A program made the translations under genes and the position numbers. DNA of 64,000 nt, taken from positions 61,103 through 125,102 of IMG/VR virus record IMGVR_UViG_3300025413_001393; one strand, given 5' to 3'. How positions within the stretch are numbered: the first letter of the stretch is position 1; each line of letters starts with the position of its first letter. The DNA comes from a virus. The notes under the pieces are model-generated. The model searched no databases. It saw only the letters and a list, made by a program, of their open reading frames with translations, and was not told the DNA's origin. Below, in pieces: positions 14,043 to 63,332 of the stretch.

Positions 14043-14666
14043 CTACGCTCGATTTAACCATATACTGTCAGACTGTATAGTCTCATTACAAATATACTCA
14101 AAATACACCATTTCGAAGTTGAAAGATTTTAATAAGTGCTCCACATCCAAAAACAATTTTTGGTTTTTCCATATTTCTTTGTGCTCACACTCAATATGCA
14201 TTGATCTAATGCTTTTAATTTTATTCTCAAAACTCTCAATAACTTCATATGTTAACCCTTCTACATCAATTTTACACAAATCGATATAATCTAAATTAAT
14301 TTGTTTGAGAAGTTGTTTACCTGTTATTGTATTTACAGTTATTTTTTCGGTTGTTATATTATTATAAAAGCCGTCAACTCTATCCAAAATAGAACTCACC
14401 CCAATATACTCTTCATCTTTGACGCAGTTAAAACTAAATGAGGAGTTTGTATTAGAAATTGCTGACTCAACTAAATTAAAATGCGGATAAATTTCTTTAA
14501 TTTTTTTAATTTGAGACGGATTTGGTTCAACTAACCAAACATTCTCATCAGATATGTTGAAATATTTTTTTAGTGTATTGCTGTCATGTCCATCTCTAGA
14601 ACCTATTTCTAATATAGATTTTGGTTTAAGGTTAGCACTTAAAATGGCGTTTATATATTCATTCAT
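14043..14666 (-). CDS. FkbM-type SAM-dependent methyltransferase
   Basis: The 207-residue protein has the SAM-binding motif SILEIGSRDGHDSNTL (about 18-33), a VEPNP motif near 50 for ribose binding, and the FkbM-family CKIDVEGLTYEVIESF segment near 135-150. FkbM enzymes O-methylate sugars and other small molecules. It begins inside the stop of the upstream glycosyltransferase gene (4-nt overlap) and is the last gene of the sugar island, so it probably methylates the glycan built by its neighbours. Confidence 0.88.
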   Translation of the reverse strand: MNEYINAILSANLKPKSILEIGSRDGHDSNTLKKYFNISDENVWLVEPNPSQIKKIKEIYPHFNLVESAISNTNSSFSFNCVKDEEYIGVSSILDRVDGFYNNITTEKITVNTITGKQLLKQINLDYIDLCKIDVEGLTYEVIESFENKIKSIRSMHIECEHKEIWKNQKLFLDVEHLLKSFNFEMVYFEYICNETIQSDSIWLNRA

Positions 14667-15355
14667 TGTTCAAAAAGTTCTTTTAGTTTTTTGACATCTT
14701 TGTCTCGATGCGTTGATCTACATCTTATGTGATATAAATGTTCAGGGGATATATAGTCTACTTCTTCATTACCAATTTGATACAAAGGTTCAACGTCCGT
14801 AAAACTAAGTCTTGTTGCTGTTTCGTTAATAGGAATATCAAAATTTTTCATAAACAGACCAAGAGCTACATCATCAATAAGATTGTGTTCCCACATTGTT
14901 TTATTTTTTACAATTAATTCTACTAAATCTTTTGACAAAAAATATCCACTACCGGAAGCAAATTTTATTAAATTACAAAACGTTCCAATTATTCCACAAT
15001 AAAATTTTGTGGAAGGTTTTGTACTGACAAAGTTTATTAATTTATTTGTATCAACAAAAGAACCCATATTACATCTAAAAATATAATTAAAATTGTACAT
15101 TTGAAGAGCCCATTCAAATGCCATAATCGTTTTTACACCAATATTATGCATACCATCGTTACACGGAAGTATTAGTTCTTCGTCACTTAAAATAGGGTAG
15201 TTAGATTTGTTGATTTGTTTTTCGTTATCAGTATAAAACAATATTTCTACATCTTTATGCTTTCGAGTGTACCACGTTTGTTTAATTGTGTTGTGCAGTT
15301 CCCTATATTCGGAATTAGATGAACCTAATATAAAAACTAATATTTTTTTAGTCAT
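14663..15355 (-). CDS. Glycosyltransferase, GT31/fringe-like
   Basis: This is a 230-residue GT-A-type protein. The N-terminal LVFILGSSNSEYRELHNTIKQTW resembles the start of beta-1,3-galactosyltransferase (GT31) domains. YIFRCNMGSF near 93-102 replaces the usual D-x-D with N-x-G, so the metal motif is not canonical. YLSKDLVELI and DDVALGLFM near 175 match the later conserved E/D-D-V-x-x-G segment. It is compactly arranged with neighbours on both sides. Sugar specificity cannot be told. Confidence 0.75.
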   Translation of the reverse strand: MTKKILVFILGSSNSEYRELHNTIKQTWYTRKHKDVEILFYTDNEKQINKSNYPILSDEELILPCNDGMHNIGVKTIMAFEWALQMYNFNYIFRCNMGSFVDTNKLINFVSTKPSTKFYCGIIGTFCNLIKFASGSGYFLSKDLVELIVKNKTMWEHNLIDDVALGLFMKNFDIPINETATRLSFTDVEPLYQIGNEEVDYISPEHLYHIRCRSTHRDKDVKKLKELFEQ

Positions 15356-15357
15356 AG

Positions 15358-16098
15358 TTAGTATAGATACGATACGAGTGTATCAAGTTCATTTTTGTAC
15401 GTGGCATACGGTCTCAACATATGGCAGTCAATGTAGTGCTGAGACTTAATAAGGTGCGGATTGTAATTCCAACAAATTCTATCAATTCTGCAATTAGCAG
15501 GTCCAGTAGGCAACCAACCACGTCCCAGTAACTCAATTGTGTTTGGATTCGTTTGTTTAAATTCGTTTATTTTTTGAAAAAGTATTTTTTGATCCGAACT
15601 CCAACCAAAATTTAACGAATTTACATACTCTACAAATTCTTTCCAAGTAATATTAATGTTTAATATTTTTCTAAACAAATCAGAATGACCAAAGTTGTAG
15701 CATATTGGATATTCGGAATTTGATAAACATTCTTTATGATCTGAACTAAAAACATAAAATTTATCCATAGACAATTGTTTTATATTTTCAATAAAATAAT
15801 TTTTAGACATTGGAAGCATATCAATATCAGTTAAAAGAATATTACCTTCAAGATGATTCGGTAAAAATAATCTAACAATTTGTGATTGTAATCCGGTATT
15901 GATACCATCTACACGTTTAAATTTTTTTATTAAACCGTATTCGTCTTCAAAAAAATCAGAGTCTTCATCTCCTATTAAACCAAGCACAGGAGTTATGTTA
16001 AAAACTGTTTTCCAAACTTTTGATACTAAAGGCCAAAAATCAATATACATCGGATTAGTATCAGAACCCATTATTGCATATTCAATTTTAGTGTTCAT
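15358..16098 (-). CDS. Glycosyltransferase-like protein, GT-A type
   Basis: The 246-residue protein has a nucleotide-sugar-type N-terminal fold and a metal motif NILLTDIDMLPMS (about 86-98) with the D-x-D (DID). The pattern of SSDQKILF and a late His-containing segment (YIDCHMLRP) suits a retaining or inverting GT-A enzyme. It overlaps the upstream gene by 4 nt (ATGA). It belongs to the sugar island and probably adds one residue to a shared glycan. Confidence 0.72.
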   Translation of the reverse strand: MNTKIEYAIMGSDTNPMYIDFWPLVSKVWKTVFNITPVLGLIGDEDSDFFEDEYGLIKKFKRVDGINTGLQSQIVRLFLPNHLEGNILLTDIDMLPMSKNYFIENIKQLSMDKFYVFSSDHKECLSNSEYPICYNFGHSDLFRKILNINITWKEFVEYVNSLNFGWSSDQKILFQKINEFKQTNPNTIELLGRGWLPTGPANCRIDRICWNYNPHLIKSQHYIDCHMLRPYATYKNELDTLVSYLY

Positions 16099-16730
16099 TG
16101 TTCCGGTTGATTGTCAAAATATACTTGGCCCACAAAAGTTGCTCCCTTTTCCAAAGGTTTGTGAGGTGGAAACGGTTTTTTTTCCATAAAAGGATCATGA
16201 ACAACGCTATTATGTCGAATTATAGGATATACAGCGTTTGCAAGAAAATACTGATCACAGCAGTAACTATCGTAATCGTTCCAATGAGATAACAAAGAGT
16301 TCATACTAAACACATTTGCTGTACCACCCCACATTCCTGCTTGTATAGGAAAATTATGATTAGGATGATCTCTCATAATATGAAATTGTTTATCTGATGA
16401 TAACCATTCATCTACAGCAGCACGCTCTCTCCAATTTATTCTTGAATCTAAATCTCTAACTATATACTTGTCAACATTTGAGTCATCGTTAACAAAAAAT
16501 CTCCAATATGCCCCATAGCACTTGCCTCTTTTGTCTAATACTTTTCTGATATCGACGTCGTAAGTTTCATGTATGCTTTTTAAAAACTCTAGTGAAACAG
16601 TTTCATCTACGTATAAACGAACTTTCCATTCCGGATATATCGTTAATGCAGCTTTTAAATTACCAGCAACGCCGTCTGTATATTTAGGATTGTTACCCCA
16701 AAGACTAAAAGATATTACGTTATTTTTCAT
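16095..16730 (-). CDS. Glycosyltransferase-like protein with RDLDSR motif
   Basis: This protein of 211 residues begins with a short strand and SLWGNNPKYTDGV. The segment KYIVRDLDSRINWRE (about 88-102) supplies a D-x-D metal motif typical of GT-A enzymes. A Trp-rich AGMWGGTANVF segment follows near 130 and CDQYFLAN near 158, which resembles the D-Q acceptor/catalytic part of GT8/GT32-like enzymes. It is flanked on both sides by other sugar-transfer genes with no gap. Confidence 0.72.
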   Translation of the reverse strand: MKNNVISFSLWGNNPKYTDGVAGNLKAALTIYPEWKVRLYVDETVSLEFLKSIHETYDVDIRKVLDKRGKCYGAYWRFFVNDDSNVDKYIVRDLDSRINWRERAAVDEWLSSDKQFHIMRDHPNHNFPIQAGMWGGTANVFSMNSLLSHWNDYDSYCCDQYFLANAVYPIIRHNSVVHDPFMEKKPFPPHKPLEKGATFVGQVYFDNQPEQ

Positions 16731-17570
16731 TTACATTAATTTTATTAATTTTGTTGCCAAAAAATCATCTGATGATGTATATTGTTTAGCCAAATTAAAA
16801 TTTTCTTCAACTGCTTTTAATTTTTGTTCGTAAACGCTTCTGGATAATTTTATCTTTAACAAATCTTCATACGAATTAAAGAGTATAAAACCATCAGTAT
16901 TAAAATACTCTTTAATATTCGGAGGCCCCCAGTAAATTGGGATACAACCAGACAACAAACAATCTATTAATTTTTCAGTAAAATAATGAGTCATTTGTAT
17001 ATTTTCAATAACAATACTAAACATATAAGTTTTAAAAGCTTCAATTTTGTTTTGTAGAAACCCATTTTGTGTTCCCCACCCATACCCATCAATACCTACG
17101 CAATTATTGTATATCTGATGTCTTAAAATATGTCCTTTATATTGTTGTTTACCAGATAAAATTATGGAACAATTTTTATTTTTTTCACCCTTGTATAAGT
17201 TGTATTCATCATCTTTAATATATGTGCCACCTGGACTGTTTGGAATAAATTTTTTTGGATTTAATGCAATTAGGTCGTTTCTATATGTTAAAATATAATC
17301 AAATTTGTGAGCAACCTTATCAATATTATTATGTACCAAAGGCTGTACTGCTGGAGATTCGAGACACCATGCAATTTTTAATTTACTTTTAACTTTATCT
17401 ACTTCTTCTCCAAGAATAAATTCATCTGTAAATAAAGTTATGCCTTCATAGTCATTTTGTCTTTGTACAAACTGAATGTTTTTTGGTTTTTTGTTTGCTG
17501 TTGATGTCCAATAACCATCTTCTCTGAGATGATGTTGACAAGTGTTATCAAATATGTTTACCGTTACCAT
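16731..17570 (-). CDS. GT10 fucosyltransferase-like protein
   Basis: The 279-residue product carries the family-10 alpha-1,3/4-fucosyltransferase C-terminal signature: FSIVIENIQMTHYFTEKLID then LLSGCIPIYWGPPNI (about 190-225), which is the GDP-fucose binding part. The N-terminal half has TDEFILG and WCLESPAVQP, as in other GT10-like phage and bacterial proteins. It overlaps the upstream gene by 7 nt. The reaction would be transfer of fucose or a related GDP-sugar onto the island's glycan. Confidence 0.85.
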   Translation of the reverse strand: MVTVNIFDNTCQHHLREDGYWTSTANKKPKNIQFVQRQNDYEGITLFTDEFILGEEVDKVKSKLKIAWCLESPAVQPLVHNNIDKVAHKFDYILTYRNDLIALNPKKFIPNSPGGTYIKDDEYNLYKGEKNKNCSIILSGKQQYKGHILRHQIYNNCVGIDGYGWGTQNGFLQNKIEAFKTYMFSIVIENIQMTHYFTEKLIDCLLSGCIPIYWGPPNIKEYFNTDGFILFNSYEDLLKIKLSRSVYEQKLKAVEENFNLAKQYTSSDDFLATKLIKLM

Positions 17571-18307
17571 GTTTTAATATAGGATTGAAGTTGATCAATT
17601 GGCATTAAGTCAATTTTTTGCAATTCGTTTATATTATGACCATTATAGATATTGTGATCATATGTAGTTTCTCCTCTAAAGTGAGTCAAATGAAGTATAG
17701 GAGAATTAGTTCTATATTTTTTATAACCTAGCTTTGTATATCTAACATTAATTTCATCATCGTCATACCCAACATTTTTTATATGAGGGTTGAACCCACC
17801 TGCTTCAATAAAACAATCCCTATTAAACATAACACATCCTCCAACTGATCTTTGTGATAATAAATTACAATCCTTTAAATTGATTTCCTTAATTGTGTTA
17901 TTTTGTATCTGTTCAACTAGGTTTAGCGGTATATCATAAAAATAACCGTTATAGGGATAAGCAAATCCGTATCCTGTTAATAATTTTTCGGATGCTTCAA
18001 GCAAATTACTCTTAGTTACTAAAACATCTACATCATACAAACAGACAATTTTATTTTTAGAAAAACGTTTAAACAATTCGTTACCAGATAACATTTTATT
18101 ATAAAAATGCTCATCAGTTATATCTTTGCAAATGTATTGGGAATTTAAAAAGGTTACCTTTTGAGTATGTTTGTAATGTTCATTTACAAACACATTTTTG
18201 GCTCCATTACGTTTTAAATAATCAATAGTTATAGTAAGATTTCTTACTCTGTCAGAATGATCTGCGTAGATAGGAATTAAGAAATCTATATCGTCGAGTG
18301 TTATCAT
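17564..18307 (-). CDS. Glycosyltransferase, galactosyltransferase-like GT-A
   Basis: The 247-residue protein has FLIPIYADHSDRVRNL at the N-terminus, a metal motif VCLYDVDVLVT (about 87-97, D-x-D) and the C-terminal GGCVMFNRDCFIEAGGFN followed by GYDDDEINVRYTKLGY (about 155-190). The latter matches the acceptor-binding W/G-x-E/D-D-D-E motif of GT2/GT7-type galactosyl- and N-acetylgalactosaminyltransferases. A late HLTHFRGET supplies a His near the active site. Confidence 0.85.
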   Translation of the reverse strand: MITLDDIDFLIPIYADHSDRVRNLTITIDYLKRNGAKNVFVNEHYKHTQKVTFLNSQYICKDITDEHFYNKMLSGNELFKRFSKNKIVCLYDVDVLVTKSNLLEASEKLLTGYGFAYPYNGYFYDIPLNLVEQIQNNTIKEINLKDCNLLSQRSVGGCVMFNRDCFIEAGGFNPHIKNVGYDDDEINVRYTKLGYKKYRTNSPILHLTHFRGETTYDHNIYNGHNINELQKIDLMPIDQLQSYIKTW

Positions 18308-18308
18308 A

Positions 18309-19145
18309 TTATGGTTTAATAGTTTTAAGAAATTTTATTACTTGCTCTTGAGGTACGTTTATCGTATTGCTTGGATAACAACCATTTTTACGTTTATACA
18401 ATTCTGCATTAGTTTGCACGTTTTGTAACCATTCAGTTGTATTTTTTGATGTTGTACTATTTTGAATGGCATCTTTCTGCGATGAAATATAATTTATACT
18501 ATTATCAATGTCAGCAAACCACCAAAACGGAGGATGATAACCAGCTTTAATAATTCTGTTAGTATGATCTACGTGTTCCCAAGCATTTTTATAATCCTCG
18601 TCGATAAATCCAACCTTATCCAACACTTCTTTAGTAAAAAACGAAAACATACCTGTTATATGCGTATATAAAGCTATTTTGCAATCGTTGTAATCAAAAA
18701 TTATTCTTGGATTAGGTTTTGAATTTTCTTTTAATTCGTGTCTGTTATGCAAATCAAAATTTTGAATTGTTTGCTTTCGGTTAAAAGGAGAACCAGGTCC
18801 AAAGTTAAAATGTTGAATACCAGTCTTTTTGCTTACATTGATATACTGTTTAAAAACCGTTTGGTCGAGAATGATCATATCATCTTCAATCAAAAATATA
18901 TAATCACAATCTTGTTCTAACAAATATTTTAATGCTTCATTCTTTGCTTTACCAACTCCAATTTTTCCTGTTGTATGCTTAATAAAATCTACATTAGGAT
19001 GAGTGTGAATTGTTTTTTTAAAACCGTCATCCACTACAACAATTTTATCAATAACTGCAATATTTTTGTCAATGGAGTCTAATAAAGTATTAAGATAATC
19101 TTCTCGTTCGCACGTAATAATGCCTATACCAATTTTATTATTCAT
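18309..19145 (-). CDS. Glycosyltransferase family 2
   Basis: This is a classic GT2 start: GIGIITCEREDYLNTLLDSI, then VDKIVVVDDG-type strand (about 35-42) and the D-x-D region FLIEDDMIILD (about 90-100). The C-terminal part contains WEHVDHTNRI, the E-x-x-D/H acceptor motif region. It is 278 residues and is the first gene of the island in transcription order after gp47, whose 3' end it overlaps by 8 nt, so the island is transcriptionally joined to the recombination genes. Confidence 0.88.
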   Translation of the reverse strand: MNNKIGIGIITCEREDYLNTLLDSIDKNIAVIDKIVVVDDGFKKTIHTHPNVDFIKHTTGKIGVGKAKNEALKYLLEQDCDYIFLIEDDMIILDQTVFKQYINVSKKTGIQHFNFGPGSPFNRKQTIQNFDLHNRHELKENSKPNPRIIFDYNDCKIALYTHITGMFSFFTKEVLDKVGFIDEDYKNAWEHVDHTNRIIKAGYHPPFWWFADIDNSINYISSQKDAIQNSTTSKNTTEWLQNVQTNAELYKRKNGCYPSNTINVPQEQVIKFLKTIKP

Positions 19146-25934: not shown

Positions 25935-26693
25935 CTAAACCTTGAGGGCGCGGTCCCAAACCAAGAGATGTAATCTTGGACTAAAGTTGACATGCATAGC
26001 CTTTGCATATTCAGCAACAGCTGGTGCATTAGCAATATGTTCCTGTCTCGATCCACTACAAGGCATGAACCAAATTCTTTGAAGAGGAACATTAATGCCG
26101 TTATAATCATCAACATATTTTCTCCAAATCTCTTCAATGTCTCTGTCAGAAGTAATAACAAACTTAAATCCAGAATTATGTTCAACGTGCCATTTGAGAA
26201 CTTCTGGCTTGTATGTCTTTTCTTCAGGATCTCCGTTTGTCGTAAGCTTTGGAGAAGTCGTAAACGTAGCACAAAACTCTGTTACCCAACGCTCGTCTGG
26301 AATAAGAGTTGCATTAGATTCAAAATCAATACGAGGAGTAAATCCATACTTCTGCACAAATGACTCCATAAACTTCAATAAGGCTTTTTGCTGAAGAAGT
26401 GGTTCACCACCAGTAATTTTCAAAATAGCTCTATTACGAAGATGCTCAACGTAATTGTTGTCTTCCATCAATTTGAAAATCTCATCAAATGTCATCTTGT
26501 TCTTAATAGACCATGAAATAAACGAATCACAACCATTTGGAGAATCCTCTGAAGCAAAGCCTATGCAAGTTAAATTGCACATCGAAAGTCTTAGAAATAC
26601 AGAAGGCTGACCAACATACTCTCCTTCTCCTTCTAACGTATAAAAACAATAATCGTCGCTAATAAACAGCGTTTCTTTAGAGGTATCAATCAT
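25935..26693 (-). CDS. queE: 7-carboxy-7-deazaguanine synthase (radical SAM) QueE
   Basis: QueE converts 6-carboxytetrahydropterin to 7-carboxy-7-deazaguanine. The 252-residue protein has the GEGEYVGQPSVFLRLSMC start, the glycine-rich ITGGEPLLQ (about 100-108), and the C-terminal FSPRLHLLVW. The cluster motif is atypical: MCNLTC is followed by a Cys 12 residues later (NGCDSF) rather than the usual C-x3-C-x2-C, which is a spacing variant of the kind reported in some QueE proteins. QueD (27468) and FolE2 (1376) supply its substrate. Only the HExxH gene (26728) separates it from queD. Confidence 0.92.
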   Translation of the reverse strand: MIDTSKETLFISDDYCFYTLEGEGEYVGQPSVFLRLSMCNLTCIGFASEDSPNGCDSFISWSIKNKMTFDEIFKLMEDNNYVEHLRNRAILKITGGEPLLQQKALLKFMESFVQKYGFTPRIDFESNATLIPDERWVTEFCATFTTSPKLTTNGDPEEKTYKPEVLKWHVEHNSGFKFVITSDRDIEEIWRKYVDDYNGINVPLQRIWFMPCSGSRQEHIANAPAVAEYAKAMHVNFSPRLHLLVWDRALKV

Positions 26694-26727
26694 GGAAATA
26701 CCTTAAACCTTTTTAACATTATGTCAA

Positions 26728-27462
26728 CTATCTGCCTTCGTATTCTTTAAGCTGCGTATAAATTTTTGCTACGTCTTTAAAAAACTTTTGATATTTTTCG
26801 TGAACATCTTTATCGTTTTTATGTTGAACTAAAAAGTTGATAAAGCGTTCATGACTTGAAAAGAAACTAGGAATGTTGATAGCATTTGAACTTCCAGACT
26901 TTAAGAAAGATTCTAAAAAAGCTAAAAATCTATCTTTAGCAAGTTTCCAAACTTTAGCTGATCTTTCATCAGAAGCTTGGTCTCGTTTATTGCAAACATT
27001 TACATAATAACGTTCGATTGCATCAAGAAAATTTGATACATAAACAGGATATTCCGTAGGATGTGTATAATGCTCTTTTTGTTTTTCGTCGGAATACGGT
27101 TCGTAGTTTGCTTCGTCTTTATACTGTTGTTTAGCGTGATACACTTCATGTGAAATCATATTAACAATAGTTTCGAGATTGTATAACCCAGTATTATTAT
27201 AAAAAAGAGTTATTGTCTGTTTCTTTTCGTCATACCATCCACTAGTTTTACTTTTCTTAGGAGATAAAATAACTTTAGCTGTCTTTTTGTTGTTATCAGC
27301 CAAGTCTATAAAACTTATATTGCCAATCACTACATCTTTTGATGGAGCTTTATCTCCGTACTTGGCTATATAATGTTCAGCCAAAGCATTAATCTGATTC
27401 CTTTCGGAATCAGTTAATACATAACGACCTTCTGTAAAAAACTGCTTAAACGATATCATCAA
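26728..27462 (-). CDS. HExxH metallopeptidase-like protein with CTS-like N-terminus
   Basis: In 244 residues the zinc motif MISHEVYHAKQQ (H-E-x-x-H, about 103-114) is clear, and the C-terminal half is helical. The N-terminus MMISFKQFFTEGRY is very like the T4 capsid-targeting sequence (MKTYQEFIAEA type), with a Glu that the prohead protease could cut after. A protein packaged in the head and injected with DNA is therefore plausible. It sits between queD and queE but is not a queuosine enzyme. Whether it cleaves proteins is untested. Confidence 0.75.
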   Translation of the reverse strand: MMISFKQFFTEGRYVLTDSERNQINALAEHYIAKYGDKAPSKDVVIGNISFIDLADNNKKTAKVILSPKKSKTSGWYDEKKQTITLFYNNTGLYNLETIVNMISHEVYHAKQQYKDEANYEPYSDEKQKEHYTHPTEYPVYVSNFLDAIERYYVNVCNKRDQASDERSAKVWKLAKDRFLAFLESFLKSGSSNAINIPSFFSSHERFINFLVQHKNDKDVHEKYQKFFKDVAKIYTQLKEYEGR

Positions 27463-27467
27463 CCTAC

Positions 27468-27908
27468 TTAAGGTTTTTGATATATTGCAGAGTTGTTTTC
27501 ATGTTCAAATACTTCTACTTTTTCTACCCAGCAGCGGTCTCCGTACTTTTCACTAATAAGCTTTTGAGCAGCATTGAAGCACCACTCAGCAGTCTTCTCA
27601 ATTCCGACTGACTCCATAATACGAAGCTGGCAGCCACGCTGATTATTAAGTTCTTGCCAAAAAGGAAGAAGAGGATCGTCTTGTGCTACACAAAGCTTAT
27701 GATCAAACTGATCGTTAAGAATTGCTTTGAGCTCTTTAAGCCCAGCAAAATCTACTACCCAGTTCTTTTCATCAAGACTTGAAGCTCCAAAATAGAACTT
27801 AGCAAGAAGTTGATATCCGTGAATATATTGACAATGACTATGTGTAGCTTTCCATTGACGGAATGCACACGACCCTAGTTCTAATACTTTAGTTGATTGA
27901 TAGCTCAT
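27468..27908 (-). CDS. queD: 6-carboxy-5,6,7,8-tetrahydropterin synthase QueD
   Basis: QueD makes 6-carboxytetrahydropterin from dihydroneopterin triphosphate. The 146-residue protein has the zinc-site His cluster ATHSHCQYIHGYQL (about 20-33, with the last His-Gly-Tyr in place of H-G-H), DFAGLKEL, the FDHK motif (about 80) and the C-terminal EVFEHENNSAIY. Its start overlaps the upstream gene by 4 nt. With FolE2 and QueE it covers three steps towards preQ0. Confidence 0.93.
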   Translation of the reverse strand: MSYQSTKVLELGSCAFRQWKATHSHCQYIHGYQLLAKFYFGASSLDEKNWVVDFAGLKELKAILNDQFDHKLCVAQDDPLLPFWQELNNQRGCQLRIMESVGIEKTAEWCFNAAQKLISEKYGDRCWVEKVEVFEHENNSAIYQKP

Positions 27909-31754: not shown

Positions 31755-32180
31755 CTAGACTTTCGGAGCCCCACCAGCAGCTGACTTCAAGTTATAATCA
31801 ATAAGAACTTGAACAAGATCTCCAAGACCACCAGTTACACGAACGATTGTTGTGGCTGTCTTGCCAGAAATATCAGCATAAGGAGTTCCTGGAACGTCGA
31901 GCTTTTTACAAAGACTGTTTAAACACTCTCCAGAATCGTTGTTAAGACTTTCAGAAAACTCTACAATCTTATTAATGTACTCACTAAGTGTACCAGCGGA
32001 ATTACCACCAGTAGGAGTTGGAGCAACGTCTGTGTTTTCACCCTCTGCAGGAACTGAAGGAGGTGTAGGAAGTGGAAGAGGCTCTACATCATCCATATCT
32101 TCTGGAGATGCAATATTGTTGCGTACTTCTTCGTCCTTTTCAATAACGAATACCTGATTGTAAAAATCTTCAAACTTCAT
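31755..32180 (-). CDS. Late protein with CTS-like N-terminus
   Basis: The 141-residue protein starts MKFEDFYNQVFVIEKDEE, matching the F-x-x-F/Y-x-x class. An acidic and Pro-rich linker (EDMDDVEPLPLPTPP) and a helical C-terminal domain follow. A late box ATAAATA lies at 32187-32193, 6 nt before the ATG, so the gene is predicted late with a near-leaderless mRNA. The function is unknown; a packaged or core role is suggested only by the N-terminus and promoter. Confidence 0.78.
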   Translation of the reverse strand: MKFEDFYNQVFVIEKDEEVRNNIASPEDMDDVEPLPLPTPPSVPAEGENTDVAPTPTGGNSAGTLSEYINKIVEFSESLNNDSGECLNSLCKKLDVPGTPYADISGKTATTIVRVTGGLGDLVQVLIDYNLKSAAGGAPKV

Positions 32181-33712: not shown

Positions 33713-34285
33713 TTAATGTACTAGATATATGTTTTCGTCTCCGTCTTTTTGGACAGAAACATTCTTATTAGTAGATCTTGCATACCTTTTAGCAAGTAGC
33801 AAATACAACGAATTTCTAGATTCATCATTTGCATCAGCAGAAAAACAAATATTATCTGAAGGTTTCAGTTTTTGATCCAAAGCAGAAATTACGGTTTGAA
33901 TAATAAGTCTAGCATTTCTCGCAACTTTAGAAGCAATAGAAGCGGTTCTGCTTCCCCATTCATATGATTCGAAGCTAATCCAATAATATGGTTCCTTTTT
34001 GATAGCTTTTGGATATTTCTGCAAAAATCCCTCAAGTGGATTATCTCCCTTTGTAATATCTTGAAGAGTAATAGAATATAAATCGTGGGTTATAAAATAT
34101 TCGTCCGGAGTACTAGATAAATCTGGATAGTTTTCTATAGCTTTATTTTCAAAGTTATACGAGAAGCCACCAACGAATGTTCCCGGAACGTTAGGAGAAC
34201 TTTGCCAATCAAAATCTATACCTTTTGCTAATGACTTACTTCCTGTAAAGGAAAACCTTTCTTCGAAATATTGTTTGAAACTCAC
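33713..34285 (-). CDS. CTS-like late protein, C-terminal GNAT-like pattern
   Basis: The start codon is GTG. The 190-residue protein starts MSFKQYFEERFSF, strongly like the capsid-targeting type. The C-terminal half (SKVARNARLIIQTVISAL ... ICFSADANDESRNSLYLLLAKRY) matches the corresponding part of the protein at 42152, so the two are distant paralogs. A late box TATAAATA is present at 34291-34298. The C-terminal R-x-x-L-Y-x-x-L pattern resembles acyltransferase-like phage proteins, without proof. Confidence 0.72.
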   Translation of the reverse strand: MSFKQYFEERFSFTGSKSLAKGIDFDWQSSPNVPGTFVGGFSYNFENKAIENYPDLSSTPDEYFITHDLYSITLQDITKGDNPLEGFLQKYPKAIKKEPYYWISFESYEWGSRTASIASKVARNARLIIQTVISALDQKLKPSDNICFSADANDESRNSLYLLLAKRYARSTNKNVSVQKDGDENIYLVH

Positions 34286-42151: not shown

Positions 42152-42682
42152 TTATTTATAACAAATAAAAATTGTTTCGTTTTTATTTCCTTTGGTTATA
42201 AAGGTTTTAAACCTACCTTCAGGAGCAAGTGTTTTTGTCAATCTTTCGTACAATTTAATTCGTGAAGGCTCTTTAGCTGCAAAGTATAATAATTTAACTT
42301 TATTTTTTTTTAAAAATGCTCTGATAAGATTAATCACTTTTCCAAAAACTTCAGCAGCTCCACCTACATTAGTAATACCTATTTTTTCAGACTTCTTTTT
42401 AATTCCTTTATCTTCAAAAGTTATTTCATAATTTTCAATAAAAACAGAGCCCATTAAATACTGGATCCCATCTGGTAATGCATCAATTTCCTCCTCATTT
42501 AAAATCTCCTCTAGAGGATAATGAGCAGCATACAACACATATGTTCTTCCATTAGATGCTTCGAATGTTGTCGAATGCTTTAAAGCAAAAATGTCATCAT
42601 TTGATTTCCATTTTGTTTCTGTTGAAGCTTGTGAATCGAAAAGCTCTAATAATAAAGATTCATAAAGACTATCAAATTTCAT
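42152..42682 (-). CDS. CTS-like late protein, paralog of 33713 protein
   Basis: This starts at ATG 42682, MKFDSLYESLLLELFDSQ. The upstream in-frame GTG falls in the late box and is rejected. Its C-terminal half (GGAAEVFGKVINLIRAFLK ... SRIKLYERLTKTL) aligns with the C-terminus of the 33713 protein, including the R-x-x-L-Y signature. 176 residues. The late box is at 42688-42694. The gene sits in a stretch flanked by a repeated segment of the LpxH-like gene, so it may be a recent insertion. Confidence 0.75.
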   Translation of the reverse strand: MKFDSLYESLLLELFDSQASTETKWKSNDDIFALKHSTTFEASNGRTYVLYAAHYPLEEILNEEEIDALPDGIQYLMGSVFIENYEITFEDKGIKKKSEKIGITNVGGAAEVFGKVINLIRAFLKKNKVKLLYFAAKEPSRIKLYERLTKTLAPEGRFKTFITKGNKNETIFICYK

Positions 42683-42694: not shown

Positions 42695-42777
42695 CACAAC
42701 TCAGGCTCTTTCTGTGACGAACCTTGTCACTATCTAATAATTGACAAGGAAGGTAGAGTTACTTTGAAAGAGATTTA
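42695..42777 (+). repeat. Remnant copy of LpxH-like gene 3' end
   Basis: About 83 bp are nearly identical to positions 42066-42149. The five differences are mostly silent third-position changes (e.g. TTT/TTC, GAT/GAC, GAG/GAA), so this copy evolved as coding sequence before it was stranded. It encodes the last 27-28 codons with a stop and has no upstream body. Together with the intact gene it brackets the inserted gene at 42152. Confidence 0.85.
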
Positions 42778-43071
42778 GTGTTTAATAGGATTTCTACGAA
42801 TTTCGTAAACCTCTTTATCAATCTCAGAAAAGAAATCCTGAACCTCTTTTAATGACATACCAGCATCCATAAGTTTTCTCTTATAATAATCTAAAGCATC
42901 TTCTTCGGATGTAAATTCAGGACTATTTCTATCAGCTCTTAAAAGACCTTTAGCATGTCTCTTATATTCGCTCTTAAGATCTTCTAGTTTCTTATTAGGA
43001 AACATTTTTGACTTTGCATTCTTAATAACATCAAAATAGGCTTCTTCTAATAATCTGGCATCTTTATTCAT
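42775..43071 (-). CDS. CTS-like late protein, LLEEAY type
   Basis: This starts at ATG 43071, MNKDARLLEEAYFDVIKNAKS. The upstream start used by a longer frame lies within the late box region and is rejected. It is 98 residues, helical and basic. The N-terminus belongs to the KDxRLIAEAY class shared with 61569, 62201 and 62505. The late box is at 43077-43083. Confidence 0.75.
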   Translation of the reverse strand: MNKDARLLEEAYFDVIKNAKSKMFPNKKLEDLKSEYKRHAKGLLRADRNSPEFTSEEDALDYYKRKLMDAGMSLKEVQDFFSEIDKEVYEIRRNPIKH

Positions 43072-60725: not shown

Positions 60726-61100
60726 TTAAACTAACTTAATGCTGTTTGGCTTTGTAGCTCTAATATAGACTTCGCCCCAAACTTCGAGTTCACCCATAAG
60801 AGCTTGGAACTGCTTTTGAGAAAGAGAATCTAAATCTTTAAGCTTCTCGTAAACTTCTTTTGCTTTAGACTTATAGTGCTCTTCTTTGTTTTCTTTGTCT
60901 GACCACTTTTCAGACTCAGCATAAGGCTTTAGTTTAGCTTTATAGTGAATAGCAGTAAGAGTACTATAGCCACCCTTCTTTTCAGTCATTGCTTGAATCT
61001 TTTCAGCTCCAGCTAGACGCTTTGTTAAAAACTCTTCGAACGCTTGTTCAGCTTCTGTTTCGTTACTAATAACTTTTTCAAAAAGACGATCAAAATCCAT
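60726..61100 (-). CDS. CTS-like protein
   Basis: The 124-residue product starts MDFDRLFEKVISNETEAE, in the F-x-x-x-F-x-x class, then is helical and Lys/Glu-rich (a coiled-coil-like body). It is divergent from the plus-strand gene at 61131. No enzyme motif is recognised. Confidence 0.68.
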   Translation of the reverse strand: MDFDRLFEKVISNETEAEQAFEEFLTKRLAGAEKIQAMTEKKGGYSTLTAIHYKAKLKPYAESEKWSDKENKEEHYKSKAKEVYEKLKDLDSLSQKQFQALMGELEVWGEVYIRATKPNSIKLV

Positions 61101-61130: not shown

Positions 61131-61577
61131 ATGAACAAACCACTCAAAGTTTTTAGTATAAAATTGGCTGACAAAATTGCTGAGTTTATTGGTTCATGGA
61201 CATTCATTATTATACAATCAACTATTCTGACGTTTTGGATAATCTTTAATGTTAATCACCTTTTTAATTTTGATCCATATCCTTTTATTTTGCTAAATCT
61301 GTTTCTGTCGTTTGAAGCAGCTTATGCTACTCCTCTCATTCTTATGTCAGCAAATAGATCTGACGAGAGAGATAGAAAGCACGCTCTTAAAGATCTAAAA
61401 ATTGATCAAGAAGCTCACGACATTATTATCGATGTTAAACGAATTCTGAAAGAGCTACGCAGAGAAATTAAGCTGGATAAAAAGATGTTATCCGAACATC
61501 ACATTCTTAAAACCGACCACGAAGAACTAAAGCAAGAGCTAGCTGAGATTAAAGAGATTTTGAAGACCTTAAGATAA
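61131..61577 (+). CDS. DUF1003 membrane protein
   Basis: This 148-residue protein matches DUF1003: FIGSWTFIIIQSTILTFW, then NHLFNFDPYPFILLNLFLSFEAAYATPLIL (two TM helices, about 19-65), then RSDERDRKHALKDL and a coiled-coil C-terminus. An ATAAGTA box precedes the start. Function of DUF1003 is unknown. It faces the gene at 61569, whose stop its end overlaps by 9 nt. Confidence 0.85.
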   Translation: MNKPLKVFSIKLADKIAEFIGSWTFIIIQSTILTFWIIFNVNHLFNFDPYPFILLNLFLSFEAAYATPLILMSANRSDERDRKHALKDLKIDQEAHDIIIDVKRILKELRREIKLDKKMLSEHHILKTDHEELKQELAEIKEILKTLR

Positions 61578-62195
61578 AGGTTCAATAATAAATCTATCGA
61601 ATCCGTTTTTCTGTGCTAACTCAAAAGCTGTATTTTTAGCAGCTCCTCCGTAACTACTAAGGCCGCCCCATCTAAACCAAAGAATACCCGTTTCAGGATC
61701 TTCTGCATTTACAATATGTGGCTTTCTCGAAATACCATAGTCTTCGGAGTATTCTACATCAGCAAGTAAGCAATGAGCTATATAAGCTTCAACGGCATTC
61801 GTTGTCTCATCAGAAAAATAGTTAAAACCCATTTCTCGTAACTTATCGTATATTAGTCCAGCATTTACCCCAACAATGTTTGGATAATGATGAGATTGCA
61901 TTAGTTGGTTCTTATTTTGAAAAAGATCTTGAACAACTCGATTAACATCGTTAGATGTAATAGTTTTTTCGTTTTCTGTGGAACCGGATGCCTCACCGTC
62001 AACAACGTTATCCTCATCATTATCATCTACGTCAAGTCCTTCAGTCCAACCTGGAATTCTTTCTGCCGCAAGAGCTTTCTTAAGATCTCCTCCGTGTCTT
62101 TTTAAATTTGCTTCAGAGTATTTGCTGTACAATGAAGACTCTTGAACTTTGTTGTAAGCTTCTGCAATAAGTCTTGCGTCTTTATCAATTTTCAT
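61569..62195 (-). CDS. Late protein with KDxRLIAEAY N-terminus
   Basis: The 208-residue protein starts MKIDKDARLIAEAYNKVQ. The segment is shared almost letter for letter with the genes at 62201 (MKIDKDSKLIAEAYKKV), 62505 and 42775, although the remaining sequences are unrelated. This implies one targeting tag used by several proteins. The C-terminal domain (GILWFRWGGLSSYGGAAKN) is not recognised. An AAATAAAT late-type box precedes the ATG. Confidence 0.78.
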   Translation of the reverse strand: MKIDKDARLIAEAYNKVQESSLYSKYSEANLKRHGGDLKKALAAERIPGWTEGLDVDDNDEDNVVDGEASGSTENEKTITSNDVNRVVQDLFQNKNQLMQSHHYPNIVGVNAGLIYDKLREMGFNYFSDETTNAVEAYIAHCLLADVEYSEDYGISRKPHIVNAEDPETGILWFRWGGLSSYGGAAKNTAFELAQKNGFDRFIIEPLS

Positions 62196-62200
62196 ATAAT

Positions 62201-62503
62201 TTATTTAGCTACTTGTACTGTTGCAATAAAATCTCTTTCACCACATGTAAATTTAACTTTACATTCATCTGGATTGACATTATCTAGATCTACAATATTT
62301 GCTCCACACGTAGGATTGTTGCTAAGCAGTCCTTGCATAACCTTGTCTGCTGCGTCTTTGCATAGTTTGTTGTAATCAGATGTAATCTTTACGAGCTCTT
62401 GTTCATCTCTCTGATCTTTCGCATTAGCTTCTTCATCGTTTTCAATAACAAAAACCTTCTTGTAGGCTTCTGCGATTAATTTAGAATCTTTATCAATCTT
62501 CAT
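62201..62503 (-). CDS. Late protein with KDxKLIAEAY N-terminus
   Basis: It starts at ATG 62503 (MKIDKDSKLIAEAYKKVFVIENDEEA), 100 residues, the longer frame being rejected. It has three Cys in the C-terminal half (CGANIV, ECKVKFTCGE). The N-terminus is a tag shared with 61569. The VFVIE-NDEE continuation also matches the 31755 gene (VFVIEKDEE), so two tag types converge here. A TAAATAA box precedes the ATG. Confidence 0.75.
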   Translation of the reverse strand: MKIDKDSKLIAEAYKKVFVIENDEEANAKDQRDEQELVKITSDYNKLCKDAADKVMQGLLSNNPTCGANIVDLDNVNPDECKVKFTCGERDFIATVQVAK

Positions 62504-62504
62504 G

Positions 62505-63332
62505 TTATTTACATTTACACTTACTCTTGAGCATGTGGCACTTGCTGCAGACTTTTTTGTTATCTTTTTCTTCTTTGCTAGGAGTGCAGCCTTTGCAACC
62601 ACCACATCTGCAGCCCTTTGTACACCACTTACACTTCTTCTCAGAAGCTTCGGAAATTACTTTGAAGTAAGCTTCGGAAAGAAGACTATTGTCTTTCTTA
62701 TTCTGAGAGAGATAACTTTCCTTAACTTCCGAGCCATCCTTTGTAGGAACATCTCCGCTTTCAACAGCTTTCTTGTTTAGCTCGTCGTTGTCATTAACAA
62801 CTTTATCAAATTCTTTTTGCCATTCAATAGCAGCTTCGGATTTTTTGTCGTAAGGGTTTGGATGAATTAAACCTTGCTTTTTACTTTTTACATAATTGGC
62901 AGCAGCAAGTCCACCAAGAGCAGCATGATCAAGCTTTCCAGCTACTTGTGCATTAGCAACTCTGCCACCATATTCTCTGATTAGTCCATCCGGATCAAAC
63001 GTTGCATGTGAAGCGATAGAATCCTTAGACTCTTTATGTACTTCTTGATGAACATGAACGTTTTCTTCTCCGTCTTTGTCAACAATAATATCACGCTCAG
63101 CTTCGTTATCAGAACCTTTGATCTTGTGTTTGATAACTACTTTATCTCCTTGCATTTCCATGTGATAGTCGTTATTCTTTTCGTGACCCTCTGTTCCAAC
63201 AATATCCTCAACTTTCTTTAATTGTTTAGGATTTTTGCGGATTTCATCCCAGCACTCGTTAAGAGTACTCTTTTTGTTTAAGACTGCATCATAAGCTTCA
63301 GCAATCAGTTCATAGTCTTTCTTTTTGATCAT
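62505..63332 (-). CDS. Late protein with repeated LIAEAY/LLSEAY tags and Cys-rich tail
   Basis: It starts at ATG 63332 (MIKKKDYELIAEAYDAVLNK), 275 residues. A second copy of the tag, DNSLLSEAYFKVISEAS, is found near residue 230, and the C-terminus is a Cys-rich zinc-binding type (CKWCTKGCRCGGCKGC ... CSKCHMLKSKCKCK). A late box lies at 63338-63344. The internal tag copy may be a second processing site, or the scar of a fusion of two tagged genes. Confidence 0.78.
   Translation of the reverse strand: MIKKKDYELIAEAYDAVLNKKSTLNECWDEIRKNPKQLKKVEDIVGTEGHEKNNDYHMEMQGDKVVIKHKIKGSDNEAERDIIVDKDGEENVHVHQEVHKESKDSIASHATFDPDGLIREYGGRVANAQVAGKLDHAALGGLAAANYVKSKKQGLIHPNPYDKKSEAAIEWQKEFDKVVNDNDELNKKAVESGDVPTKDGSEVKESYLSQNKKDNSLLSEAYFKVISEASEKKCKWCTKGCRCGGCKGCTPSKEEKDNKKVCSKCHMLKSKCKCK

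Follow-up and report, generated by a model that had tools for sequence, protein, structure and literature searches.

A short N-terminal tag, with the consensus M-x(1-5)-K-D-x-x-L-[I/L]-x-E-A-Y-x-x-V in the four proteins that begin with it here, is very likely a propeptide for prohead targeting and processing, a divergent form of the capsid-targeting sequence (CTS) of phage T4. The tag forms a sequence family with a fixed position and diverse cargo, occurs with a protease gene, is associated with late promoters and is exchanged with other labels on homologous bodies that resume at hydrophobic-x-E. Docking, cleavage, packaging and injection are inferred, in the absence of virion proteomics or N-terminal sequencing. 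The window analyzed was a 64,000-nucleotide stretch of the 125,102-base record of an uncultured T4-like virus. The first-pass annotation had claimed near-identical 14-residue starts on four proteins (42775, 61569, 62201, and 62505), no similarity among them past the tag, and a second, internal copy (LLSEAYFKV) in the 62505 protein. All three claims held; the bodies do not cluster together, and the internal copy is the sole fifth site in the window. Its reading of a targeting or processing tag resembling the T4 CTS (IAEA core), with gp21-type cleavage, was supported by the N-terminal position, the unrelated bodies, the T4 register, the gp21-type protease, the late-promoter association, and the label exchange, with cleavage and packaging remaining inferred.

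When the window was translated in all six frames, [LIVMF][LIVMFA]xEA[YFW] turned up in five places only, all of them tag sites. A profile of 77 tags, all taken from other contigs, scored these five sites at 24.5-38.2 bits; the next-best segment among the predicted proteins of this genome reached 12.0, and the top score in 50 shuffled proteomes was 18.2. Conservation runs beyond 14 residues, and 62 of 86 tags (72%) have a second [LIVM]xE no more than 12 residues further on, against a baseline of 12% for random 12-mers from the same proteins. Vertical bars in sequences here and in the table mark predicted cuts, none of which has been observed.

Table 1. Labeled proteins and tag copies in the window (positions are those of the window).
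Feature	Position	Strand	Details
Tagged protein 1	61569..62195	-	208 aa; N-terminus MKIDKDARLIAEAYNKV; predicted cuts MKIDKDARLIAE|AYNKVQE|SSLY...; TAAATA 5' of ATG
Tagged protein 2	62201..62503	-	100 aa; N-terminus MKIDKDSKLIAEAYKKV; predicted cuts MKIDKDSKLIAE|AYKKVFVIE|NDEE...
Tagged protein 3	62505..63332	-	275 aa; N-terminus MIKKKDYELIAEAYDAV; predicted cut MIKKKDYELIAE|AYDAVLNKK...; TAAATA upstream
Internal tag copy	62640..62699 (approximate extent)	-	KKDNSLLSE|AYFKVISE|A inside tagged protein 3; possible internal cleavage sites
Tagged protein 4	42775..43071	-	98 aa; N-terminus MNKDARLLEEAYFDV; predicted cut MNKDARLLEE|AYFDVIKN...; TAAATA upstream
Uncut tag N-terminus form			MKIDKDARLIAEAY; predicted mature starts AYNKV, AYKKV or directly after V/L-x-E
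Neighbor gene	60726..61100	-	N-terminus MDFDRLFEKVISNE... (MDFDRLFEKV..., MxFDxLxE class)
HExxH protein	26728..27459	-	T4-type N-terminus MISFKQFFTE|GRYVL; homologues L006:7991-8788 (tag) and L016:4905-5660
T4-type N-terminus protein	33713..34285	-	GTG start; MSFKQYFEE|RFSF; TATAAATA 6 nt upstream
Class II N-terminus protein	31755..32180	-	MKFEDFYNQVFVIE|KDEE; TAAATA upstream
Class II N-terminus protein	42152..42682	-	MKFDSLYESLLLE|LFDS; TAAATA upstream

No close relatives of tagged protein 1 were found by relative-locus search; separately, its residues 74-208 proved homologous to the body of L080:3436-4200, which is also a tagged protein. For tagged protein 2, the ATG at 62503 was taken as the start in preference to the mechanical ORF's GTG farther upstream, and a counterpart 32% identical occupies the same position in contig L101; a promoter for tagged protein 2 is doubtful because the end of the gene before it overlaps the TAAATA. 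Tagged protein 3 has a 37% identical homologue in L101/L006. The internal copy in this protein (KKDNSLLSEAYFKVISEA, core beginning at 62684) directly precedes its Cys-rich C-terminal segment. In other phages (L038, L049, and L051), a separate protein opens with the tag followed by a similar Cys motif, and inner LxEAYxxILE copies occur in several of the Cys-rich tagged proteins. The simplest reading, which is possible but unproven and rests on analogy with Flavobacterium phage immuto, is that tagged protein 3 is a fused cargo that would be separated by the protease.

Pattern scans of IMG/VR placed the tag on 94 non-redundant proteins in 49 contigs, their bodies falling into 68 clusters without detectable similarity, with five tagged proteins in each of L009 and L046 and up to seven in L089. 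At least 10 loci of one scan represented a single chance match in a non-coding frame and were left out. Some tagged proteins form families, such as a cluster of 11. Pfam and PHROGs gave a match for very few of the bodies, and nearly all 94 are without known function. The alignment of N-termini across relatives, suggested earlier as a check, showed 80 tagged proteins conserved only over MNKDxxLLxEAYxxV. Glu lies at residue 10-13 in 94/94 proteins, one search pattern having fixed residue 10; the presence of L/I-x-E across the set was likewise partly imposed by the search patterns, but the motif is present as well in the four window tags, which were given beforehand. Searches without a start-codon condition nonetheless placed the tag 10-13 residues from the initiator Met. 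With a K-D pattern, all 11 evaluable DNA matches had an ATG 2-6 codons before the K, and 7 of 8 matches to a second start-free pattern lay directly behind an ATG. With L[LI]FEAYKK, 17 of 21 distinct matches had an upstream ATG and a tag-like N-terminus (at 6 codons, n = 16; at 8 codons, n = 1); one of the other four was cut by the contig end, and three were unrelated.

Synonymous codons for the Leu, Ala, Glu, and Tyr residues of the tag vary freely, which points to selection on the tag peptide. Labels on unrelated bodies were more alike within a contig (similarity 0.37) than between contigs (0.20; 0/2000 shuffles), as would be expected if they matched one docking partner, although this test is affected by the way the contigs were found. 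A T4-type DNA polymerase is encoded in the window, with homologues in six further tag contigs. The hypothesis that the cargo is characterized by basic charge was rejected (median net charge -3). Among named phages, a 20-residue tblastn query of the tag against 50,697 phage records gave no match, nor did the tagged bodies, apart from one weak PGDYG match.

T4 gp21 cuts after L/I-x-E, and in T4 IPIII residues 8 and 10 govern cutting and residues 4 and 7 targeting (PMC9026906). An E-to-D change at residue 10 of IPIII stops cutting while leaving targeting intact. The gp21 motif of the tag stands at residue 10, the register of T4 ipII and ipIII (MKTYQEFIAE|A); in MNKDARLLEE|A, residues 8 and 10 and a hydrophobic residue 7 are kept, with D at 4. 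The T4 targeting residues (aromatic 4 and Phe 7) are not met, the commonest tag having D at 4 and L at 7; they are met by a separate MxxFKQFFTE class. Because residues 4 and 7 differ, the tag is best regarded as a variant that would work like a CTS but stands outside the T4 sequence family. Like the T4 CTS (IPII/IPIII as above; IPI MKTFKEF...), it is N-terminal, spans about 10 residues with L/I-x-E|A and Glu at residue 10, is common to unrelated proteins, and belongs to a virus encoding a gp21-type protease. Unlike the T4 CTS, it has K-D in the region where T4 residue 4 is aromatic, its conserved part is longer (A-Y-x-x-V and usually a second L/V-x-E), as many as seven proteins carry it on one contig, and its TAAATA elements nearly abut the ATG. 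The head propeptides of phiKZ and SPN3US (gp175/gp245) also involve many internal proteins, repeated sites, and cutting after Glu (PMC9026906), but the phiKZ motif is S/A-x-E, the virus type differs, and to our knowledge these propeptides do not form one common short tag.

The protease itself was identified in this genome as gp21-type (phrog_207, E = 6e-55), in the half outside the window, together with a T4-type portal (phrog_213) and a T4-type major capsid protein (phrog_138). Among 31 scanned tag contigs, an intact T4-type capsid gene was present in 11, and phrog_207 was detected in these same 11/11; one further contig retains just a fragment of the capsid gene at its end. Eleven tag contigs, the window's own genome included, are 100 kb or longer, and the protease was found in 10 of these. 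No recognizable gp21 or T4 capsid gene was seen in the 107-kb contig G013 or in several tag contigs of 60-96 kb, which are possibly fragments. Capsid proteins of tag viruses share a conserved [LMFI]xE before A/S/Q/G in the N-terminal arm, the region of T4 gp23 cleavage; alignment did not bring it into the exact column of the T4 site. Between the protease and capsid genes sits a scaffold-like protein, so named from its position and without a family match. No significant match of the tag profile to the scaffold was found, leaving no docking partner identified, and mimicry of a scaffold segment (EExxxxIxEAFxxAV) by the tag was rejected as unproven, with scaffold profile scores at background.

Labels are exchanged on homologous bodies, and the label is read as a module that has moved between cargo proteins and alternated with T4-like labels. 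A 250-residue HExxH protein occurs with three N-termini: MLKKKDFELIAEAYELVCLNE|RVYQL (L006), MFNFREFLQE|RIYRL (L016), and MISFKQFFTE|GRYVL (window). Identity between the L006 and L016 proteins is 42%, and homology picks up again at hydrophobic-x-E (LNE|RVYQL, LQE|RIYRL, and FTE|GRYVL). Exchange between the tag and a T4-like label was seen in this one family, at 42% identity, as a natural exchange without an assay. The AlphaFold model of the window HExxH protein is fairly confident (pLDDT 80) outside one loop and the 11-residue label at its start, and gave no significant fold match in the PDB. Residues 18-123 of the neighbor gene product (60726) are 91.5% identical to L009:3467-3859, which starts MDKELQYLAEAYSSIHEKK (MDKELQYLAEAYSSIHE...) in place of MDFDRLFEKVISNE, a natural exchange with the MxFDxLxE class; no clear L/I-x-E marks the boundary on the window side.

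Label exchange is also seen on a small basic protein: this genome has MESFQQFFTE|QKVKRDRC, L040 has MKFNVLVEAYLSTLLE|DKVKRDRC, and immuto has IIKEILSE|KKADRC. The neighboring body reads MNFRKLVLE|AFEKEKKEGLHGWFSR in this genome and FLLE|SFDKEKKEGLHGWFSR in L040; in immuto it is fused behind the small basic protein with its own LLQE|DETLHKWFSR. In the cultured phage immuto (NC_055915, gp084), this internal-protein-like ORF has its basic bodies behind LSE|KKADRC and LLQE|DETLHKWFSR, and a T4-like prohead serine protease is annotated, as in the tag viruses. With the patterns used, neither the KDxxLIAEAY tag nor any class I-III label was detected in the immuto genome. The two small, basic, Cys-containing labeled proteins of this genome (L002:18480-18632 and 18629 onward) lie outside the window in the head-gene region.

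TAAATA was found 8-22 nt before the ATG of 50/85 tagged genes, compared with 155/853 other ORFs in the same loci (Fisher p = 6e-15). It also precedes the portal, protease, scaffold, sheath, and other virion genes of this virus. We infer that TAAATA is a T4-type late promoter from its resemblance to TATAAATA, a consensus match only. Upstream of many virion genes it often stands 5-10 nt from the ATG, and late mRNAs are possibly nearly leaderless.

In the mechanism we propose, tagged proteins would be made late in infection alongside the head proteins, and their first 10-20 residues would dock them in the prohead's scaffold core. Cleavage after L/I-x-E by the gp21-type protease that the virus encodes (at LIAE|AY, at the V/L-x-E| that follows, or at both) would then leave the mature cargo inside the head, to enter the host along with the DNA upon ejection.

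The best-surviving alternative, although unlikely, is a docking helix that retains proteins in the prohead or virion and is never cleaved off. In its favor, residues 5-19 of the tag are predicted to be helical, albeit in a low-confidence model (the model of tagged protein 1 from its single sequence, pLDDT 46, was unusable), and a conserved A-Y-x-x-V past the Glu would be odd for a mere cut marker. Against it, L/I-x-E is kept, a second [LIVM]xE usually follows, and homologous bodies with differing N-termini begin at hydrophobic-x-E sites. We consider it very unlikely that the tag sends proteins elsewhere, to the tail, capsid exterior, or host membrane. The late-promoter association would suit any virion protein, and a docking partner is lacking, but the tag exchanges with MxxFKxFxxE labels that match T4 internal head proteins, and its cleavage motif is that of a protease that works inside proheads. 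Less likely still is a relic of ancestry, in which one duplicated gene family has kept its start while the bodies diverged. Some tagged families do exist and tags are alike within a contig, but about 14 residues stay constant at the peptide level across 68 dissimilar body clusters, and homologous bodies carry different tags. A nucleic acid-level signal, such as an enhancer of translation or a promoter reaching into the first codons, would fit the position of the tag directly behind a TAAATA nearly abutting the ATG but is all but excluded by the synonymous codon variation and by an internal copy far from any start.

The propeptide interpretation is preferred, and as such the tag would be new in sequence and known in kind; no earlier description of the motif was found in the open-access literature, to which the search was limited. 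In T4, labels of this type are known on just a few proteins. Phage-injected proteins meet host defenses first and usually evolve too fast for homology to find them. The tag, recognizable in many uncultured T4-like phages, can be used to find predicted internal, injected proteins from sequence alone (94 here), the list points to new anti-defense or takeover factors, and the tag is a candidate for a new signal with which proteins could be packaged into phage heads.

Two further N-terminal classes, often preceded by TAAATA, were noted: T4-like MxxF[KR][QE][FY][FLV]xE (window 26728 and 33713; genome 18480) and MxFDxL[FVY]E-like (MxFDxLxExxL; window 31755, 42152, and 60726; genome 18191). They may be parallel label classes, a possibility less tested than the main tag. 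A bolder reading, somewhat less likely than not, is that uncultured T4-like phages run a system of address labels: at least three interchangeable propeptide classes would send unrelated effectors into the head by the dozen, and some cargoes (62505; the immuto fused ORF) would be polyproteins cut by the head protease into several injected proteins.

Several labeled or other genes resemble known families. The window HExxH protein has an HEVYH motif, in Pfam resembles Peptidase_M91 (E = 0.015) and SprT-like (0.08) only weakly, and could tentatively be an injected metalloprotease, a predicted head cargo inferred from sequence. In L023 (12,684 bases), a nicotinamide-nucleotide adenylyltransferase-like protein (RYNPPTIGHEKL) starts MKTFKQFFFEE, a T4-like label, and this NAD enzyme is possibly head cargo. 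An aspartoacylase/desuccinylase-like protein (SGIHGDEPAGNK) in L057 and L058 starts MKFDFLVEKLL, a class II label. QueE- and QueD-like genes were recognized by eye at window 25935-27908, as annotated in immuto; such genes are reported for Far-T4 phages (PMC4360716), and 7-deazaguanine DNA modification in this virus is conceivable on that visual judgment. Finally, a run of ORFs at window 14043-19145, amid replication genes, resembles glycosyltransferases or methyltransferases by eye.
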